In this document: one piece after another, positions 2,227 through 57,096 of the stretch | Layout: each line of letters begins with the position of its first letter | Numbering within the stretch: position 1 is the stretch's first letter | Source of the DNA: an uncultured Deferribacteraceae bacterium | GTDB lineage: Bacteria > Chrysiogenota > Deferribacteres > Deferribacterales > Mucispirillaceae | Assembly (NCBI GenBank): GCA_947041165.1 | Contig: CAMRCY010000005.1 | Span: forward strand, 1 to 64,000 | Direction: 5' to 3' | DNA length: 64,000 nucleotides | Notes under the pieces: generated by a model | What the model saw: only the letters and a program-made list of their open reading frames with translations | Told to the model about the DNA's origin: nothing | Databases searched by the model: none | Translations under genes and position numbers: made by a program

Positions 2227-3357
2227 CTAATTCAGACCAAAATCATTCAGTAATGTTTTTACATCATCGCTATCATCTTTGATAGGCAAACTGTTGAAAT
2301 GTAGAAACCCAACTAGTGATCCTAACGCTGTACCTATTTCACGCATTGACAACATTACTTTATGTAATTTTTGCTCTGTTATATCTTGAAACTCTAAACT
2401 TTCTAAAACTCTTAATCCCATCTTATCAATCTTGCTGGTAACAGAATCAATAGCCTCTAAACGATTGTTTATAGCTCCAATATCATTATTTTTTAATGCC
2501 GTTCTTAATTCTAATGTGTGTACAGAAAGTAGTTTATAGTAATCAAGTAATGTTTCTGCCGATTGAACAAGAGTTGTTATCGCATCATCTGTTGTTCTGT
2601 TAACCGATACAAGCGATGTTAAGATATCTGGAACTGATCCTCTTGTTTCTGATACAGTAGGAGTGATGTCATCCATCTTTTCTTTTAACTCAGATATTAA
2701 TCGCAATAACTCACCAACCTCACCTTTTACATTGAGGGAACTATTATCTACTTTCTCGCCTGATATAATTTTTTTAGCAGCTAATTTAAGATCTTCTACT
2801 GACATATATTTAAAAACATCCTTATTTATATCTACATCTTCTGTACACATCTGTAGATCTTTTTTATCTGGAACTTCTATTGGTTTTGTTAAATCGATTA
2901 CATCTAGATCATCTATAGAAACAGCATCAATATTGTTTATATTATCCGCTTTATTCCCTAACTCTTTTTGAACATCTTCTTGATAAATATAATTATCGTA
3001 ATAATCATCACTGTTGTGATACCCATCATCACCATAATCATCTATCTGATAATCATCGGCATGAAGAGAAATCACTGCATGACCTGTAATTTTGTCATCC
3101 ACTGAAAGATCATTTATATTTAATAAATTATCTGCCGTGTCTAGTAAGCTATCTGCTGTGTCTAGCAAACTATCTGCCGTGTTTAACAAAGTAGCACCAG
3201 TATCTAATGAACTATCTGCGGTACTAAGCAAACTATCTGCCGTGTCTAGCAAACTATCCGACGTGCCTAACGTACTATCTTCTATATCAAGCAAGCTATC
3301 CGATGTGCCTAACATACTAGCTTCTGTATCAAGCAAACTATCCGACGTGCCTAACAT
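2227..3357 (-). CDS. cheZ: CheZ-type chemotaxis phosphatase with N-terminal heptad-repeat region
   Basis: A 376-aa protein. Its last about 180 residues match CheZ, which dephosphorylates CheY-P. The family signature appears as LEFQDITEQKLHKVM, keeping the Asp and the catalytic Gln of the DxxxQ element. The N-terminus (residues 1-77) is eleven back-to-back heptads of the type LLDTADS or MLGTSDS, followed by an Asp/Tyr-rich linker (about 90-125). Classical CheZ is near 214 aa, so this one carries about 160 extra residues. The ATG at 3357 has AGGTG 5 nt upstream, and a second in-frame ATG occurs two heptads later. The frame stays open upstream into the A10 tract at the end of cheW. CheW lies just before it on the same strand. 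Confidence 0.85.
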   Translation of the reverse strand: MLGTSDSLLDTEASMLGTSDSLLDIEDSTLGTSDSLLDTADSLLSTADSSLDTGATLLNTADSLLDTADSLLDTADNLLNINDLSVDDKITGHAVISLHADDYQIDDYGDDGYHNSDDYYDNYIYQEDVQKELGNKADNINNIDAVSIDDLDVIDLTKPIEVPDKKDLQMCTEDVDINKDVFKYMSVEDLKLAAKKIISGEKVDNSSLNVKGEVGELLRLISELKEKMDDITPTVSETRGSVPDILTSLVSVNRTTDDAITTLVQSAETLLDYYKLLSVHTLELRTALKNNDIGAINNRLEAIDSVTSKIDKMGLRVLESLEFQDITEQKLHKVMLSMREIGTALGSLVGFLHFNSLPIKDDSDDVKTLLNDFGLN

Positions 3358-3386
3358 ACTAGCACCTAAGTTATCGTCAACTTGAG

Positions 3387-10769: not shown

Positions 10770-11773
10770 ACTTTCAACTCCTTATAAAAAGAATCTCTCA
10801 TTACAGGTATCATATTTGCAGATTTTATAAGATTTACTAACTCACTCTCAAGCATAGAATCTTCAGATTTTGCACCTGCTGCATAAGTTATATTCTCTTT
10901 AATAATCGTACCATCTAAATCGTCAGCTCCTGCACGCAACGCTACCTGTGCAGTTTTACTTCCAAGCATTACCCAATACGCTTTGATATGTGGAATATTA
11001 TCTAATATGATCCTTGATGCTGCGATCACTCGTATATCATCTATACCTGTTGATCTTGGAACGTGTGATAAAAATGTGCCATCTGGATGAAACGATAATG
11101 GAATAAATGATACAAATCCACCTGTTTCTTCTTGAAGTTTTCTAAGTCTTAATAGATGATCAAATCTTTCACGATCACTTTCAATATGACCATATAACAT
11201 CGTCGCATTAGTACGAATACCCTCTTTATGCGCTATTCTATGGATATCAAGCCATCTATCACTCGAGATCTTCTCTGGACAAATTTCTGCTCTTACTTTT
11301 TCATCAAAAATTTCTGCACCACCACCAGGCATTAATTCTAATCCTGATTTTTGTAACGCTTTTAGAACTTCTGCTATTGATAAACCAGATATCATTGAAA
11401 AATAATCTATCTCAACAGCTGAAAAACCTTTGATCGTTATATGTGGATAGCTACTCTTGATAGCCGATAACATATCTGTATAGTAACTAAATGGATAATC
11501 TGGATGAAGCGATCCTACAACATGAACTTCATGTAGATTTTCGGCATACTCAGATATATATGACAAGACATCATCAATACTCATCTCATACGCACCAGCA
11601 TCACCTTCATCTTTGGCAAACGCACAAAACTTGCAGTGACTAGCACAGATGTTTGAATAATTTATATGCATATTCTTTACAAAAAAGGCTTTCTCGCCCC
11701 ATAAATTTTTTCTTATTTTATCAGCTTTATTTACTAAATCATAAAACTCATATTCAAATGGATTATATTGCAA
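10757..11773 (-). CDS. mqnE: Aminodeoxyfutalosine synthase, radical SAM
   Basis: 338 aa. The radical SAM cluster motif CASHCKFC (Cys43, Cys47, Cys50) follows HINYSNI, and EVHVVGSLHPDYPFSYYTD, PGGGAEIF, ICPEKIS, TNATMLYGHIES and NIPHIKAYWVMLG are hallmark MqnE segments. It catalyses the second step of the futalosine pathway to menaquinone, joining the chorismate-derived compound to the adenosyl radical. It appears to start at TTG with an upstream AGAGAG. No other mqn gene is in the window. The aromatic genes at 48-57 kb include the branch that makes chorismate, and sdhCDAB nearby uses a quinone. Confidence 0.93.
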   Translation of the reverse strand: MQYNPFEYEFYDLVNKADKIRKNLWGEKAFFVKNMHINYSNICASHCKFCAFAKDEGDAGAYEMSIDDVLSYISEYAENLHEVHVVGSLHPDYPFSYYTDMLSAIKSSYPHITIKGFSAVEIDYFSMISGLSIAEVLKALQKSGLELMPGGGAEIFDEKVRAEICPEKISSDRWLDIHRIAHKEGIRTNATMLYGHIESDRERFDHLLRLRKLQEETGGFVSFIPLSFHPDGTFLSHVPRSTGIDDIRVIAASRIILDNIPHIKAYWVMLGSKTAQVALRAGADDLDGTIIKENITYAAGAKSEDSMLESELVNLIKSANMIPVMRDSFYKELKVWQI

Positions 11774-11817
11774 CTCTACACTCTCTTATATTATTTCGTA
11801 ATATATCGATAATTTCT

Positions 11818-13017
11818 CTATCCTACCATAGAATTCATCTGAAATAAAGGTTGCATTATTGATACTATGATAAACCCAACCATACCACCGATAAATACTA
11901 TAAATAAAGGCTCAATTAATGATACAAATCGTGTTAAAAATTTGTCTACCTGTTTTGAGTAAAACTCGTTCACTCTATCAAGCAGATCTGGCATATTACC
12001 TGATGACTCACCTGTTGATACTGCAGCTGGAAATAACTCTGGAAAAACCTCTGCATTCTTTATAGCTTTTGAAAACTTAACGCCTGACTGAACTGATGTT
12101 CTAACATCATTTATTACCGACTGAATATATCTATTATTTAACGTGCTACTAGCATGTGCTAAAGCATCCGTCAACGGAAGTCCTTCTCTAAGTTGAAACG
12201 CTAAAATATGTGCAAATTTTGCGACTAATGTTGTTGATACTAACTTTATGCCGTAAAGACGTTTATCAATCTTTAATCTAAATTTAACATTATTTCTAAA
12301 ATTGTAACGAGTAACAAATATGACAAATAGCAGAAATACTAAAAGTATAATTCCATAATTAACTACAAAATCTGATATAGCCAATAAGAACTTAGTAGTG
12401 CCTGGAACTTCTTGTTTCATAGATGAAAAAATCTTTTCCATCTTTGGCACAACCACCGATAAAAGAAATCCTAACACTCCCATACCCATAACTAAAATTG
12501 TCATCGGATATACAAGCGCTGATGATACCTTATCGTTATTCTTCTGCTTAAACTCTTCATACTCTGCAATATCACCAAGCACTGCCGATAATCTACCTAT
12601 ATTTTCCGATGCCTTAATTAAATTAACGTACATTGAATCAAATATATTTGGATATCTTGCAAGCGACTCTGAAAATCTCATACCTTCTGAAACCTTAGAT
12701 GCAGAATCTTGTAACGCTTCTCTAAGTCCTTCGTTCTTCTCAGATTTTGCAATAATATTGATAGCTTCTACTAACGTAATTCCTGATCTTAATAGAAGTG
12801 ATAATTGAAAAAATGTATCAGCTAAATTTTTCTTAGCTGCAAATAAATTTTTGAAAGTATCAAACTGTCCTTTCTTAACAGAAACTTCTGAAATGTCTGA
12901 CACAAAAATACCTTGACGCATTAACTCATTTGTAAGCGCAACCTTAGACGTAGCCTCTTTTGTGCCACGCTCAACCTTGCCATCTGATGTTGTTCCAACG
13001 TAATTAAATGATGCCAT
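11818..13017 (-). CDS. gspF: Type II secretion inner-membrane platform protein GspF
   Basis: 399 aa, as expected for GspF/PilC proteins. Two repeated cytoplasmic domains each begin with a helical bundle (FFQLSLLLRSGITLVEAINI and FAHILAFQLREGLPLTDALA). They are separated by hydrophobic helices (about residues 170-190 and 220-245), with a last helix near the C-terminus (LIEPLFIVFIGGMVGFIIVS). It forms the inner-membrane base that contacts the GspE ATPase. Its ATG lies just after the gspE stop, with AGGTAGAG spanning the junction. It closes the gspCDEF run. Confidence 0.94.
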   Translation of the reverse strand: MASFNYVGTTSDGKVERGTKEATSKVALTNELMRQGIFVSDISEVSVKKGQFDTFKNLFAAKKNLADTFFQLSLLLRSGITLVEAINIIAKSEKNEGLREALQDSASKVSEGMRFSESLARYPNIFDSMYVNLIKASENIGRLSAVLGDIAEYEEFKQKNNDKVSSALVYPMTILVMGMGVLGFLLSVVVPKMEKIFSSMKQEVPGTTKFLLAISDFVVNYGIILLVFLLFVIFVTRYNFRNNVKFRLKIDKRLYGIKLVSTTLVAKFAHILAFQLREGLPLTDALAHASSTLNNRYIQSVINDVRTSVQSGVKFSKAIKNAEVFPELFPAAVSTGESSGNMPDLLDRVNEFYSKQVDKFLTRFVSLIEPLFIVFIGGMVGFIIVSIMQPLFQMNSMVG

Positions 13018-22410: not shown

Positions 22411-22670
22411 ACATATAATCAATTTACGTGCAAAATCATATATACTATTAATATATGCAAAACTCATATCTGCTAAATTACACATATAATCAATTTACGT
22501 GCAAAATCATATATACTATTAATATATGTAAAACTCACATCAGCTAAATTACACATATAATTAATTTACGTGCAAAATCATATATACTGTTAATATATGC
22601 AAAACTCACATCTGCTAAATTACACATATAATCAATTTACGTACAAAATCATATATACTATTAATATATG
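22411..22670. repeat. Four tandem copies of a 71-bp unit with internal dyad symmetry
   Basis: Copies start at 22411, 22482, 22553 and 22624, the last truncated near 22670. Each begins acatataatcaatttacgtg and contains catatat-actatta-atatatg, a 7-bp inverted repeat with a 7-nt loop. Copies differ at only a few positions. The array fills the gap between two convergent genes and could act as a set of hairpins or binding sites. Confidence 0.9.
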
Positions 22671-22698
22671 CCTCAACTGATATAGAAGATATCACAAC

Positions 22699-23561: not shown

Positions 23562-24506
23562 ATGGATAAAGATATCAAAGCTGTGAAAAGTAGCCTTTCT
23601 GCACCAAAAAACAAGCCAGCTAAAAAAAGTGGTAGTAAAAAAATAGTTTTTATTATCTTTTTCACTTTCCTTGTAATTATTTCTGTAGGGATTATCTCAC
23701 TACATCTATACTCAAACTACAAACTAAATGCTGTGTTGAAATCTACTATTAGATCTGTTCGTGGAAATACAGAACTATCTTACGCTAAAGCTGAATACAC
23801 TTTCTGGAATAAACAACTGCGTATCGACGATTTAACTGTTGTGTATGGTGATTCAACTGTTGCAAAATTTGGTACAGTACATCTTCCTAATATTGGGTTT
23901 CAAGAAAATCTGCTTTCTGATCTCTCATTTACATTTGAGAATGCTCAATTAAATCTTTCTGCACCTGTCTTTAAAATGTTAGGTAAACGAATTGAAACAT
24001 TAGGATATAACCCTTTATATTTTAAAGGCTCGGTGGCTATAAAATATAATACTACTCATAAAAATTTAACAGTTAACACTTTTGAACTTGATATTAAAAA
24101 CTTAGGTACATTAAATGTAGAGTTTGAAATACCTAATGTGGAAACTAAATACGATCTACTTAATAATAGTTTTGACAGACTTAGAATAAATTTTGTTAAT
24201 AACGGTATCATTAACGAAGTTGTACGCAGTTACGCTACAAGTAGAGGATATGATATTATACAAGGTAAAGAGGTTGCTCTTTACAGATTAAAAACTGTGA
24301 TGTCTAAATATAAGCCTATTAGTAACCAATATAGACAGTTAACTAGTTTATATGATTTTATGGAAAATTCGTCTGAGATACTTTTTTCATCAGATGTTAG
24401 AACTGATCTTGCACTTAAAGATCTAATCGAAATCATGAACGCTAAAAACTATAACAGTATCGTGAGAGCTATACTTAATTTACCACTTATAATTATAACA
24501 AAATAA
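23562..24506 (+). CDS. Unknown membrane-anchored protein, 314 aa
   Basis: Not recognised. The cytoplasmic N-terminus is Lys-rich (KNKPAKKSGSKK), a single membrane helix follows (about residues 27-49, IVFIIFFTFLVIISVGIISL), and the remaining about 260 residues would be periplasmic. Strands such as ELSYAKAEYTFWNKQLRIDD and NVEFEIPNVETKYDLL give an alternating beta pattern reminiscent of AsmA or YdgA-like proteins, which is only a guess. GAGGTG precedes the ATG and a promoter lies upstream. A bidirectional hairpin follows the stop. Its last codons are duplicated just downstream. Confidence 0.75.
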   Translation: MDKDIKAVKSSLSAPKNKPAKKSGSKKIVFIIFFTFLVIISVGIISLHLYSNYKLNAVLKSTIRSVRGNTELSYAKAEYTFWNKQLRIDDLTVVYGDSTVAKFGTVHLPNIGFQENLLSDLSFTFENAQLNLSAPVFKMLGKRIETLGYNPLYFKGSVAIKYNTTHKNLTVNTFELDIKNLGTLNVEFEIPNVETKYDLLNNSFDRLRINFVNNGIINEVVRSYATSRGYDIIQGKEVALYRLKTVMSKYKPISNQYRQLTSLYDFMENSSEILFSSDVRTDLALKDLIEIMNAKNYNSIVRAILNLPLIIITK

Positions 24507-24519
24507 TTTACCACTTATA
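24476..24519. repeat. 28-bp duplication of a gene 3' end
   Basis: taatttaccacttata occurs at 24476, inside the last codons of the 314-aa gene, and again at 24504, across and after its stop codon. Confidence 0.8.
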
Positions 24520-24525
24520 GATAAT

Positions 24526-24564
24526 AAAAAAGATCCTCTTTAAATAATTAAAGGGGATCTTTTT
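24526..24564 (+). terminator. Bidirectional intrinsic terminator
   Basis: AAAAAGATCCTCTTTA (24526-24541) pairs with TAAAGGGGATCTTTTT (24549-24564) with one mismatch around a 7-nt loop. The ends are A-rich and T-rich, so it can serve the plus-strand 314-aa gene and possibly copA from the other side. Confidence 0.85.
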
Positions 24565-31766: not shown

Positions 31767-32507
31767 ATGAAACAATTTTCTTACTCTGATTACGATTTTT
31801 TTGCATATTTTTATAATAAATATTGGACGATCGGATATCCTTTAACTATGGTTAAAGCATTAGATAGAATTCTTTTTCCATATATAAAACCTGATGCAAA
31901 AATATTAGATTTATGTTGTGGAACTGGAAACGTAGCACATGAATTGTCTACGATAGGATACGACGTGATGGGAGTTGATGGATCGGCATCTATGCTTGCA
32001 TACGCGACTACTAACGCTCCTCAAGTCAACTTTATTCAATCTGATGTAAGAGAGTTAAATCTTGGGGTTAAGTTCGATGCAATCATATCGCTACTAGACT
32101 CTATGAACCACCTATTAACTGTGGAAGATTTAGAAATTGCTTTTAAAAAAGTTTATGAACATCTAAAAGATGATGCTATTTTTGTGTTCGATATTAACTC
32201 GTATAAATCATCTATCACTGTTGCTGATTGCTCGTTCTCAGTTGTTGAAGATACAAATGTTTTTATCAATAACGCTTACTATGATGAAAAAGAAGAGAAA
32301 TTAATTTACAACATAACAATGTTTATGAAAGAAGATAATAACTGGATCAGAGGCGATGCACAAATAGTTGAAAGATATTACGATGAAAGTATAATTGTAG
32401 ATATTTTGCGATCAGTAGGATTTAATAATATATCCGTCATGCAAGGTTATAAAGATCTTAGAATTAAAAAGTTCGCTGATAGAATTTTTATCACAGCAAG
32501 AAAATAA
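31767..32507 (+). CDS. Class I SAM-dependent methyltransferase
   Basis: 246 aa. The SAM-binding motif ILDLCCGTGNVAHELSTIGY, the acidic end of strand 2 (VMGVDGSASML) and FDAIISLLDSMNHLLTVED mark a Rossmann-type methyltransferase. The C-terminal half (IINNAYYDEKEEKLIYNITM region) is a beta-rich substrate domain common in small-molecule methyltransferases of this type. The substrate cannot be read from the sequence. AGGTAG precedes the ATG. Confidence 0.85.
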   Translation: MKQFSYSDYDFFAYFYNKYWTIGYPLTMVKALDRILFPYIKPDAKILDLCCGTGNVAHELSTIGYDVMGVDGSASMLAYATTNAPQVNFIQSDVRELNLGVKFDAIISLLDSMNHLLTVEDLEIAFKKVYEHLKDDAIFVFDINSYKSSITVADCSFSVVEDTNVFINNAYYDEKEEKLIYNITMFMKEDNNWIRGDAQIVERYYDESIIVDILRSVGFNNISVMQGYKDLRIKKFADRIFITARK

Positions 32508-32666
32508 CCTATACCGTAAACTAAAAAGGTTTAGATAGAAAATATTCATCTATAACATAAATATTATTTAATAATCTGCAATCAGCAGAATTTAGAACTA
32601 TCTATATATTTAGCTATATTATAAAGATTTTAGAATAAATAAAAATATGGTAAAGTATTTATTACA

Positions 32667-32775
32667 GCAGTAAAATGTAGTAACAATGTAGCTCGTTGTA
32701 GATCTACAGTAAGCAAGTTTTTAATAAGTATAAAGTAGTAAAAAATAGCAACAACGTAGTTCTGTTATAGAAGCA
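32667..32775. repeat. Degenerate two-copy repeat before the nitroreductase gene
   Basis: The segment gcagtaaaatgtagtaacaa (32667) is matched by a segment at 32732 that shares TAGTAAA, TAG, AACAA, GTAG and TTC in the same order, period about 66 bp. It may overlap the promoter of the nitroreductase gene. The rest of the 310-bp gap from 32508 to 32817 shows nothing else. Confidence 0.55.
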
Positions 32776-44866: not shown

Positions 44867-45130
44867 TTTTGTGGTTTGTGGTTTGTGGTTTTATATTTGT
44901 GGTTTGTATTTTGATGTTTATATTTTATAACTTGTAGCTTGTAGCTTGTAGTTTATAGTTTGTAATTTATACTTTATAACTTATAGTTTGGTAGTTTCAA
45001 TTTGTAGTTTGAATTTTATATTTTATAACTTGTAGTTTGTAATTTATATTTTATAACTTATAATTTACAGTTTGATGTTTATAGTTTATCGCTTGGAGTT
45101 TGTAGTTTCAATTTGTAATTTATATTTCGC
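44867..45130. repeat. Low-complexity C-poor repeat array
   Basis: About 260 bp of nested short repeats: tttgtgg (four or more times), cttgtag (three times) and a longer unit around attttataacttgtagtttg that recurs with changes near 44930, 45020 and 45050. Very few C occur on the plus strand. It lies between the barrel gene and the comM 3' end, and no gene is supported. Confidence 0.85.
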
Positions 45131-45243: not shown

Positions 45244-46785
45244 TTAATTCGCATCATTAAATCTATACTGCAAAGATTCCAATATATGTGTTTTACCGAT
45301 ATCGGTATCGCCTGAAATATCTGCAATTGTTCTTGCTGTTTTAATCACTTTAGAGTATGCTCTTGCTGACAAATTATAACTCTTTAATGCTTTATATAAA
45401 ATATCTTCAGCCTCAGTTGTTAACACACAAAATTTCTTTATATCCTTTTCACCCATATCTGAATTGAAATTTATATTAGTATCAACAAATCTTTCAATCT
45501 GTATCTCGTGTGCTTTCATCACTCGCTCTCTAATAATTTTAGAGCTCTCACCCTTTTTTAATGAGATAAGATCATCATGTGCAACTGAAGAAATATGAAT
45601 GTGCATATCTATCCTATCTAACAGAGGCCCTGATAATTTTGCTCTATATCTATCGATTGCTGTTCTTGAACAGATACACTCTTTACTGCTATCGCCGTAA
45701 TATCCACACGGACATGGGTTCATTGCACCTATCAACATAAAGTTTGCTGGATAGGTAACAGTTCTGCCTGCTCTTGCAATTGTTACTTCTCGATCTTCTA
45801 ATGGCTGACGTAAAACTTCTAAAACATTTTTATCAAACTCAAGCATCTCATCGAGAAATAAAACACCTGCATTCGCAATCGATACCTGTCCTGGAGTAGC
45901 CTTACTTCCACCACCGATAATCGCAACATTACTCGCTGTATGGTGAGGAGATATAAACGGCCTCGTACACACTAAATCATTCTGTCTTTTTAATAATCCT
46001 GCTATTGAATGGATCTTAGTGGTCTCTAATGACTCGTTAAATGTTAAGGGAGGCAAAATTGATGGAACTCGTTTCGCCATCATCGTTTTACCAGATCCTG
46101 GTGAGCCTATCATAATAATATTATGCCTGCCTGCCGCTGCAATCTCTATCGCTCTGCAACCTGCAAATTGTCCTTTAACATCTTCAAAATCATGCTCGTA
46201 ATCTATATCATAGCTATCCACTATCTCCATATCGCTACGTTGTGGAATTAATAATTTTTCATTTTTTAAATGGTGTATAATGTCTTGGAGATTATCTGAA
46301 TGATAGATATTTATGTTATCTATAAATAGTGCTTCTTTAAGATTGCCTGAAGGTAAGATAACATTCTTAAAGCCGTTTTTTTTGCTGTATTCAACAATAG
46401 GCAGAACACCTGAAACTGATCTTAATTTTCCATCAAGAGATAGTTCACCTAAAATAACAGTGTCTTCAACCTCTTTATTATCTATATACCCAGCAGCAAT
46501 TAGTAAGCCGATCGCTATTCCTAAATCAAAATGAGTTCCCTCTTTTCTGAAATCTGCTGGTGCTAAATTGATTACAATAGGTTTTCCAAATAAATTATAT
46601 CCTAGGTTTTTGAGTGCTGAACGCACACGCTCACGACTCTCTTTAACAGAGTTTTCAACAAGTCCTACAATAGAAAATTGAGGCATTCCTTGATTTGAAA
46701 TATCAACTTCTATATCTACCTTTAATGAATCTATACCTAGTAGGTAAGATGAGTTAACTTTTCCAAACAACTGCTGTGCCCCCAA
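45244..46785 (-). CDS. comM: YifB/ComM-family AAA+ Mg-chelatase-like ATPase
   Basis: About 513 aa. The N-terminal domain (YLLGIDSLKVDIEVDISNQG, VNLAPAD region) precedes the AAA+ core with GSPGSGKTMMAKRVPSILPP and LFLDEMLEF, a Cys cluster (CPCGYYGDSSKECIC), arginine-finger LDRIDMHI and a C-terminal helical domain. ComM acts as a hexameric helicase in branch migration during natural transformation. The start is not certain: TTG at 46785 opens the frame, but TTG at 46770 (giving MFGKVNSSYLLGID) matches family N-termini better. Its first codons are the seed of the upstream tandem array. Confidence 0.9.
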   Translation of the reverse strand: MGAQQLFGKVNSSYLLGIDSLKVDIEVDISNQGMPQFSIVGLVENSVKESRERVRSALKNLGYNLFGKPIVINLAPADFRKEGTHFDLGIAIGLLIAAGYIDNKEVEDTVILGELSLDGKLRSVSGVLPIVEYSKKNGFKNVILPSGNLKEALFIDNINIYHSDNLQDIIHHLKNEKLLIPQRSDMEIVDSYDIDYEHDFEDVKGQFAGCRAIEIAAAGRHNIIMIGSPGSGKTMMAKRVPSILPPLTFNESLETTKIHSIAGLLKRQNDLVCTRPFISPHHTASNVAIIGGGSKATPGQVSIANAGVLFLDEMLEFDKNVLEVLRQPLEDREVTIARAGRTVTYPANFMLIGAMNPCPCGYYGDSSKECICSRTAIDRYRAKLSGPLLDRIDMHIHISSVAHDDLISLKKGESSKIIRERVMKAHEIQIERFVDTNINFNSDMGEKDIKKFCVLTTEAEDILYKALKSYNLSARAYSKVIKTARTIADISGDTDIGKTHILESLQYRFNDAN

Positions 46786-46836
46786 AAGATCTTATCTACA
46801 ACTTGATCTACCTTTAATCTATCTATGACTTGCACA

Positions 46837-47192
46837 TAACATGAATTAACTTTTCAAACAACTTTTACTACACAAAAATTTTATATAATACATTAGCCAT
46901 CTACTACCAATACATAACATGAATTAACTTTTCAAACAATTTTTACTTCACAAATATCGTATATAATACATTAGCCATATACTACCAATACATAACATGA
47001 ATTAACTTTTCAAACAACTTTTACTTCACAAATATCGTATATAACACATTAATCACATACTACCAATACATAACATGAATTAGCTTTTCAAACAATTTTT
47101 ACTTCACAAAAATCGTATATAATACCTTAACCATATACTACCAATACATAACATGAATTAACTTTTCAAACAACTTTTACTATCCCAAAAAA
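46837..47192. repeat. 4.5-copy 78-bp tandem array derived from the comM 5' end
   Basis: Copies start near 46837, 46913, 46991, 47068 and 47146 (partial), each opening cataacatgaattaactttt. The first about 45 bp of each unit matches comM codons from LFGK to about LLGI (46740-46772, plus-strand gtaagatgagttaac and onwards). Frameshifting changes and stops mean no unit encodes protein. Confidence 0.92.
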
Positions 47193-47262
47193 TATTACGC
47201 ATACATATTGATATAGTTACTTTACAATATTTAATTGAGATATTGCTCGTTCTATTTTTCAA

Positions 47263-48120
47263 CTATTTCATTAAAAAATAAAATCTTGTACCATTATTTG
47301 TTTCAATTAATGTGTCTAGTCCTGTACCTTCAACTAATTTATCTAGAAATTTTTTCTTCTCTTTATATTCATAAAGCTCTAGTTTATCATTTTCTAACTC
47401 GATCTTCATATCAACAAATGCATCGTTATATGAACCTAGATTATCAATTAACTTTAATTTCTCTGCCATGTTACCTGTAAAAATTCTGCCGTCTGCAATC
47501 TCTTTCACAACATCAACTTGTAGGTTTCTTCTTGATGCAACAGCATTAACAAATTGTTCGTACATATCGTTTATAACTTCCATCATCAACGCTGTTTCCT
47601 CTTCTGTCATCGTTTTATCTGGATTACCGATATCTTTAAATTTACCACTTTTTAACACGACACTCTTTATACCGATCTTATCAAAAAGCTCTTCCATATT
47701 CACAAGGCTCATAATAACTCCGATCGAACCTGTGATAGTTGTTGGCATTGCATAAATTTTATCAGCTCCTAAAGCAATAAGATATCCGCCTGATGCTGCA
47801 ACTGAATCCATCGCTATATACACAGGTTTTTCTATCGTCATAATATAATTATAAATATTAAACGATGGAGTGATCGCACCACCTGGTGAGTTCACCTTAA
47901 TAATGATACCTTTAACTTTTTCACTTTTCACAAGTTTATCTATTTTCGCAATAAATATATCACTCTCAAGTATCTGTCCACTAAAATCTATAGTAGCTAT
48001 AACATCTTTATCTATCATATCTTCAGGTGTTATTTCTATACCTAATATAGTAAACAAATTCTGAAATATAAAAACTACAGCCAATAAAATAATTAACCCT
48101 TTAACAACTCTTCTGAACAT
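47263..48120 (-). CDS. sppA: Signal peptide peptidase SppA (short form)
   Basis: 285 aa. An N-terminal membrane helix (GLIILLAVVFIFQNLF) is followed by the protease domain: VIATIDFSGQI, INSPGG-like VNSPGGAITPS, MDSVAASGGYLIALGADKIY (nucleophile Ser), GSIGVI and VVLKSGKFKDIGNPDK with the general-base Lys. It degrades cleaved signal peptides in the membrane. It follows rpsA but is separated by a terminator, so it probably has its own promoter. Length is that of the short, single-domain form. Confidence 0.93.
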   Translation of the reverse strand: MFRRVVKGLIILLAVVFIFQNLFTILGIEITPEDMIDKDVIATIDFSGQILESDIFIAKIDKLVKSEKVKGIIIKVNSPGGAITPSFNIYNYIMTIEKPVYIAMDSVAASGGYLIALGADKIYAMPTTITGSIGVIMSLVNMEELFDKIGIKSVVLKSGKFKDIGNPDKTMTEEETALMMEVINDMYEQFVNAVASRRNLQVDVVKEIADGRIFTGNMAEKLKLIDNLGSYNDAFVDMKIELENDKLELYEYKEKKKFLDKLVEGTGLDTLIETNNGTRFYFLMK

Positions 48121-55909: not shown

Positions 55910-56047
55910 ATAACCAAATTACAACTATTCTAAAATACCTTTAGGGCTCAACTGTAATCAATGTCTAATTGTAACTAAATTACAACTAGAACTAGAAGAC
56001 AGTTACAACCAAATTACAACTACTCTAAAATACCTTTAGGGTATGAA
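55910..56047. repeat. 94-bp duplication of the pheA 3' end
   Basis: A segment at 55910-55951 (ccaaattacaactattctaa, then aatacctttaggg) recurs at 56004-56047, where it covers the last pheA codons and stop. It is about 90% identical. The other gap sequence between hisC and pheA also shows degenerate ttacaact elements. Confidence 0.85.
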
Positions 56048-57096
56048 CCCAATATTTTTACAAGTGGTAATTTTGATTTTAGTTTATCTATCACTTCGCA
56101 AATCTTACTATCATTTCTGTGTCCATCTATATCTACAAAAAATAGATATTCCCACGCTATGCGTTTTGATGGACGGGACTCAATCTTACTCATATTGACA
56201 CCCACTTCATTAAAAACTTCTAAGGCACTATATAAAGTTCCTGACTGATGCATTACTGAAAACATCATAGATGTCTTATCCTCGCTCGTAGGCTCAACCA
56301 TATCTTTACCGATTATTAAAAACCTTGTAAGGTTTGATGATGAATCTTGTATAGATCTCTCAACAACTTTTAGATTATAAATAACCTCGCAAAGTTTAGA
56401 GCCTATCGCAGCCACACTCTTATCACCTTGTGCTTTTAAGGCTGCCTTAGATGTTGAGTCTATCTCATAGATATCTACATTTGGAAAATTTTTATCAATA
56501 TAATCTCTGCACTGTGCCAACGCTTGTGGGTGTGAATAGATACTCTTAATATCACTCTTATCACCTGTCATTGATAGTAGGTTATGATTTATCTCAACTA
56601 AAATTTCACCGACGATATTTACATCAGACTCAACAAATAAATCTATCGAATGATTTACAACACCTTCAACAGAATTCTCGATAGGTATAATCCCATAATT
56701 GAACCAACCTCTTTCAACACCCTGAAAAACATCTGCGATTTTATCAGTTGGCATAAGTTTAGCCGATGAACCAAAATGTTTTAATGCCGCAAGATTAGAG
56801 AATGTCCCTTCAGGTCCTAAATAGCCTATCTTCAAGTGATCTTCAAGTGATAATGATGCAGAAATAATCTCACGAAAAATAGGACGAATTGCAGATGTTG
56901 GAAACGCTCTTCCTTTATTTCTCTCCGTTAATCTCTCATAAATAGAACTCTCTCTTGATGGTACCCATACCGGAGAGTTACTACCTTTTTTAATATTGCC
57001 TACCGACTTAACATGTTCTGCTCTCTCATTTAAAAGATCAAGAATTTTGTCGTCTATCGCATCAATCATATTTCTATATTTATCTAATGAACTCAT
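56020..57096 (-). CDS. pheA: Chorismate mutase-prephenate dehydratase
   Basis: 358 aa, the fused bifunctional type. The AroQ chorismate mutase helices come first (MIDAIDDKILDLLNERAEHV, about 1-85), then the prephenate dehydratase lobes (IGYLGPEGTFSNLAALKHFG, IIPIENSVEGVVNHSIDLF, SNLTRFLIIGKD), then a C-terminal ACT domain (KTSMMFSVMHQSGTLYSALE, IESRPSKR) for phenylalanine feedback. It makes phenylpyruvate. It is likely the first gene of the aromatic operon. Confidence 0.96.
   Translation of the reverse strand: MSSLDKYRNMIDAIDDKILDLLNERAEHVKSVGNIKKGSNSPVWVPSRESSIYERLTERNKGRAFPTSAIRPIFREIISASLSLEDHLKIGYLGPEGTFSNLAALKHFGSSAKLMPTDKIADVFQGVERGWFNYGIIPIENSVEGVVNHSIDLFVESDVNIVGEILVEINHNLLSMTGDKSDIKSIYSHPQALAQCRDYIDKNFPNVDIYEIDSTSKAALKAQGDKSVAAIGSKLCEVIYNLKVVERSIQDSSSNLTRFLIIGKDMVEPTSEDKTSMMFSVMHQSGTLYSALEVFNEVGVNMSKIESRPSKRIAWEYLFFVDIDGHRNDSKICEVIDKLKSKLPLVKILGSYPKGILE

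Follow-up and report, generated by a model that had tools for sequence, protein, structure and literature searches.

A tandem array upstream of comM that stems from the start region of the gene in a Mucispirillaceae bacterium

The DNA analysed here is a window of 64,000 nucleotides from an uncultured Deferribacteraceae bacterium (contig CAMRCY010000005.1), in which most of the gap between comM and its upstream neighbour sppA is taken up by a tandem array. Very probably, the array is a locus-specific minisatellite that arose when a segment of about 92 bp, spanning the comM translation start, was duplicated in tandem, and that mutation and drift have shaped. The comparisons reported below establish that the array has its source in comM, that the duplication is shared with a related genome, that the reading frame was lost, that amplification took place in one lineage only, and that similar arrays occur at other gene ends. 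The genome of the window is denoted G000, and three genomes of the same genus G001, G002 and G003. G000 and its relatives are draft assemblies; G000 consists of 70 contigs, and is probably metagenome-derived.

The array and its match to the comM start

Tandem Repeats Finder (TRF) identifies at 46834-47191 of the window an array with a period of 78 bp, 4.6 copies and 92% matches; both flanking genes are on the minus strand. The initial annotation had described about four and a half 78-bp units in the gap, which holds for the array as a whole, but not for the unit nearest comM, where the spacing is 91-92 nt. The comM gene (45244-46770, minus strand) encodes a Mg-chelatase-like AAA+ protein of the YifB family (Pfam PF13541, PF01078, PF13335). 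Its start is placed at the TTG codon 46770-46768, because relatives show ATG-FAKI at that codon and, in G002, an in-frame stop precedes it by two codons. The codon lies inside the segment from which the array stems (46701-46772, minus strand), which matches 46793-46863 over 72 nt. Unit 1 (46772-46862, minus strand, 91 nt) adjoins comM; alignments, six shared substitutions and one deletion mark it as the oldest copy, and as the orthologue of a single copy found in G002. Units 2-5 (46863-47174, minus strand, 78 nt each) are delimited by TRF, by anchors at 46940, 47018, 47096 and 47174, and by alignments. TRF shows the head-to-tail tandem arrangement of the units, which are mutually 87-96% alike, with fixed substitutions between them. 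On the minus strand each opens with (A/G)TTGTTTGAAAAGTTAATTCATGTTATG, and the comM start reads GTTGTTTGGAAAAGTTAACTCATCTTACC.

The alignment of the proximal copy with comM scores 62. In 5,000 dinucleotide shuffles the mean score was 18 and the maximum 39, and the best of 1,686 other stretches of the window reached 37; the resemblance to the comM 5' end, for which a comparison with shuffled sequence had been proposed as the test that could refute it, thus stands. A single outer unit scores 35 against comM (shuffle maximum 34), a value also reached at one other place in the window. Outer units are therefore borderline when taken singly, yet their status is assured by their tandem arrangement in register with the proximal copy. 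The extent of the match differs from the about 45 bp per unit initially assigned: derivation from the start of the neighbouring gene spans 72 nt in unit 1 and only the first 26-28 nt in units 2-5, the other 50 nt of which show no similarity to comM (p 0.29-0.84). The description of the units as decayed and untranslatable is confirmed, since one G of GGAAAA is missing from every copy, so that all are unreadable in the frame of comM. The copies also lack the ribosome-binding-like GGGG run of comM.

Related genomes reveal how the array came about. The comM protein of G000 is 96-97% identical to those of the three same-genus genomes; the sppA-comM gap measures 492 nt in G000, 107 in G001, 171 in G002 and 218 in G003. 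A single decayed copy of the start region is seen in G002, where it lies 81 nt ahead of the genuine comM start (score 48, shuffle maximum 34); no such copy was found in the sppA-comM gap of G001 or G003. Copies thus number five in G000 and one in G002, against zero in the other two genomes. Both the comM and the sppA tree place G000 and G002 as sisters (support 0.997 and 0.981, respectively). Unit 1 and the G002 copy have in common the missing G and six substitutions, which occur in none of the four comM genes; the shared derived changes turn TTACC into TTATG, and AGGTATAGATTCAT into AGTC.TAG.TAGAT. Such sharing of derived states implies that a single duplication predates the split of G000 and G002, for which comM dS (synonymous divergence) is 0.48. 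G001, G003 and 23 more distant relatives share a conserved comM N-terminus, and no self-match was detected upstream of comM in these 23, all with readable upstream sequence; this settles the direction, comM being the source.

The order of events indicated by the comparison of genomes is a duplication across the start codon, decay of the copy, and amplification of a 78-bp derivative, the latter in the G000 lineage only. Origin in the comM 5' end followed by decay, as originally suggested, is upheld by homology, by the changes shared with G002 and by the conserved N-termini of relatives. The idea of repeated outward copying of the coding edge is not upheld: a single duplication of comM took place in the common ancestor of G000 and G002, and it was the decayed copy that multiplied, units 2-5 not being fresh copies. 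The first event may have been slippage, or else illegitimate recombination, involving short stretches of similar sequence. A GTAGATA-AAGTTG-like motif is present upstream of the comM start and again within the gene, about 50 nt from its beginning; similar stretches are GGTAGATATAGAAGTTG within comM and, in G002 and G000, a TAGATAAAGTTG-like sequence ahead of the ribosome-binding region, and these would be the likely breakpoints. Slippage or unequal exchange could have later amplified the 78-bp derivative. At the distal end, the flank 47175-47198 (minus strand) resembles the ribosome-binding region before comM (TAATATTTTTTGGGATAGTAAA) in a weak gapped alignment (47146-47223 versus comM -24 to +26, score 40), and is possibly a remnant of the original upstream edge.

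Alternative explanations and function

A chance resemblance between A+T-rich sequences might account for the score of the outer units, equalled as it is elsewhere in the window. The likelihood of this is negligible, as the proximal copy outscores all shuffles and all other window stretches, and a related copy sits at the matching place in G002. The sequence common to array and comM would also result if the array were the older of the two and had supplied the comM N-terminus, a scenario made extremely improbable by the conservation of the N-terminus in G001, G003 and 23 distant relatives which have no array. An assembly artefact could be suspected in a 70-contig draft, the more so as same-genus contigs often end at arrays. 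This too is very improbable, though less so than the former two, because fixed substitutions distinguish the units and a related single copy is present in G002, which was assembled separately. Membership in a dispersed or mobile repeat family, such as mycobacterial interspersed repetitive units (MIRUs), repetitive extragenic palindromes (REPs) or miniature inverted-repeat transposable elements (MITEs), was rejected: all five genome matches of the unit are at the comM locus, and the 78-bp unit was found neither elsewhere in G000 nor in the relatives searched. The whole 78-nt unit is repeated, with no unique spacers of even length as in CRISPR loci, and the array includes no open reading frame (ORF) of at least 60 amino acids and no flanking terminal inverted repeats, as an insertion sequence would. 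The array is correctly placed, as from the start, outside insertion sequences, CRISPRs and REPs.

It could be argued that the array is a functional comM leader, in which units act as decoy starts, as short upstream reading frames, or through copy-number (phase) variation of expression. The array lies directly before comM, keeps the TTG start context in each unit, and adds about 390 nt of repeat and copy sequence to the leader. Such a role is nonetheless unlikely. The array is absent from the three same-genus genomes, the GGGG run and the frame have been lost, and arrays flank unrelated genes as well. The leader has no match in Rfam at E values up to 1, folds no better than shuffled sequences (z 0.9 and -1.0) with no stable structure, and shows no excess of promoters or terminators; an array of regulatory RNAs, promoters or terminators was accordingly discarded. 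Apart from making the comM leader longer, the array probably serves no function, with a small probability that this extra length affects comM. The hint that the repeats might matter for competence, because they multiply the translation-start region of a competence-linked gene, has not been borne out: many other, unrelated genes are accompanied by copies of their edges, for the most part 3' edges, and the comM copies lack both the GGGG run and the frame. Nothing ties the array to competence, which is not involved.

A neutral minisatellite born at the comM start is therefore the preferred reading. A duplication crossing a gene edge can persist because one gene is always left intact, and selection does not remove it; crossings at 5' ends are rarer, plausibly because the leader is disturbed. 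Some observations weigh against this reading. The source of the 50-nt remainder of units 2-5 is unproven, its match to the G002 spacer being weak (p 0.006-0.2). The leader is about three times the mean length of those of relatives, and this could change expression; neutrality of the array is what we infer. Copy numbers are uncertain as well, given the draft state of the assemblies and the many same-genus contigs ending at such arrays.

Copies of gene edges and arrays in the genus

In sampled stretches amounting to 464 kb of G000, each gene edge was compared with the adjoining gap, and a copy was called at a score of at least 40. Own-edge copies were found at 12 of 441 gene edges, with 0.2 expected. 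A conservative count is nine, setting aside two short dubious ORFs (L058, L059) and a tandem paralogue (L071 11420); the latter region (11420-11854, G000 C7) hosts a gene beside a diverged paralogue, aligned over about 300 nt, and not a short edge copy. Within the genus, edge copies number 17 in 852 (11 conservatively), whereas four genomes from other genera yielded none in 496 (Fisher p 0.0005 for all 17, 0.009 for the 11 convincing cases). Convincing copies in G000 are mostly at 3' ends, with the stop codon within the unit. Examples are arrays of 69 bp x 2.7 (L074), 65 bp x 3.1 (L076), 57 bp x 4 (L062) and 86 bp x 2.5 (L069). Arrays with periods of at least 40 bp, located outside genes or across their edges, number 33 in 464 kb of G000; G005, whose G+C content is similar, has 4 in 400 kb (binomial p about 1e-5, computed with 32). 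Repeat periods are divisible by three in 27 of 27 coding and 18 of 59 intergenic cases, a pattern which points to frequent tandem duplication, blind to frame and subsequently filtered by selection.

Orthologous gaps in relatives, G001 and G003 included, often have no array, or a different one. Arrays of 69 bp reside at the end of the same gene in two species (L074 19348-19531, G000 C9; L155, G001 C87). The 40-nt gene part of the units corresponds to the gene end of its own genome (97-100% in G000, 95-100% in G001), and the 29-nt spacers are 93-97% alike within a genome, but only 38% between G000 and G001. At L069, the middle unit resembles the outer unit in its 5' part and equals the gene end exactly in its 3' part, a pattern that unequal exchange would produce. 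Both cases suggest that a gene end may re-seed its array, though at L074 the arrays could also have formed independently at one place in the two genomes. No recent re-seeding was seen in the comM array. A broader view, in which tandem duplications of about 50-170 bp are unusually frequent in the genus, and selected gene ends re-seed decaying arrays which evolve in concert, is tentative, and rather less probable than its opposite.

Loss of repair genes was considered as a cause of the arrays and rejected, since mutS, recJ and xseA are present. Full-length mutS2 is missing from G000 and present in 14 of 15 compared relatives. The adjacent tetratricopeptide repeat (TPR) gene is also missing, only weak paralogues matching, so that a draft gap is as likely as a real mutS2 loss. 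Moreover, arrays also occur in G001-G003, all of which possess mutS2. A long-DNA search for the mutS2 region, represented with its TPR neighbour by G003 C4:16008-18281 (L168), gave no match, a result uninformative alone. MutS of G000 (C21:21315-23672) and of the same-genus genomes matches the family model to about position 797 of 840, and that of relatives to the end; the C-terminal part of the protein may differ in this genus.

Other copies of gene edges, and further repeats, were found in the window. The interval 32551-32676 (plus strand) holds a decayed copy of the 3' end of a methyltransferase-like gene (31767-32507; score 49-51), similar to the comM event. The last 22 nt of the gene 56020-57096, stop codon included, are copied at 55925-55946 (minus strand; 21 of 22 identical), a copy absent in G001-G003. 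A 28-bp x 2 repeat detected by TRF (24476-24531, plus strand) lies across the 3' end of the gene 23562-24506. The gene 2227-3357 includes a coding repeat (3125-3361) of 21, 42, 63 and 84 bp, all multiples of three. A clean intergenic array of 71 bp x 3.7 (22411-22671) separates a small plus-strand from a small minus-strand ORF; derivation from a flanking gene was rejected at the sensitivity used. Around comM, the upstream neighbour (47263-48120, minus strand) is an sppA-like S49 peptidase gene (PF01343), and a second array (44868-45124), with a 7-bp TTTGTAG-like period or alternatively periods of 35 and 49 bp, lies directly downstream of comM. Contigs of G001 and G002 stop close to the 3' end of comM, which would be expected from arrays that interrupt assembly.

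Relation to known repeats

The comM locus offers a clear two-step birth of a bacterial minisatellite at a gene start, sister genomes holding the one-copy and the many-copy stage, in a lineage whose intergenic regions are filling up with tandem duplications that capture gene ends. This bears on the growth of intergenic DNA, on the sites at which draft genomes of the genus break, and on annotation, which copied start or stop regions may mislead. MIRUs of mycobacteria are tandem units of about 77-101 bp that occur at gene junctions, overlap start and stop codons, and form one dispersed family; the comM unit is similar in size and in location at a gene junction, but is found at one locus only. The array in the tyrT operon carries copies of the 3' end of a tRNA gene and gives rise to a transcript, rtT RNA. 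Both tyrT and comM feature tandem repeats bearing a copied gene end; at comM, however, it is the 5' end of a protein gene, with no sign of an RNA. The rtT transcript of Escherichia coli is named in PMC2965389.

Of the same kind are the variable number tandem repeats (VNTRs) of Yersinia pestis, 16 of 88 of which hold the start (6) or the stop (10) codon of a neighbouring gene; more than half are intergenic, and units inside ORFs are divisible by three (PMC3689786). A bias toward 3' ends is common to these VNTRs and to the edge copies of G000. Units in Y. pestis are mostly 7-21 bp and polymorphic within the species, whereas those described here are about 57-170 bp long, decayed, and known from comparison between species. 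The repeats of archaeal Borgs are strongly genome-specific, and have periods divisible by three in ORFs and not in intergenic regions (14-38%) (PMC9879509), as is the case here; they are however perfect, and reside on linear extrachromosomal archaeal elements, in contrast to the imperfect units of a bacterial chromosome. The comM array belongs to the known kind of VNTRs that include start or stop codons, to which it adds longer units, strong decay, and a one-copy stage preserved in a sister genome.
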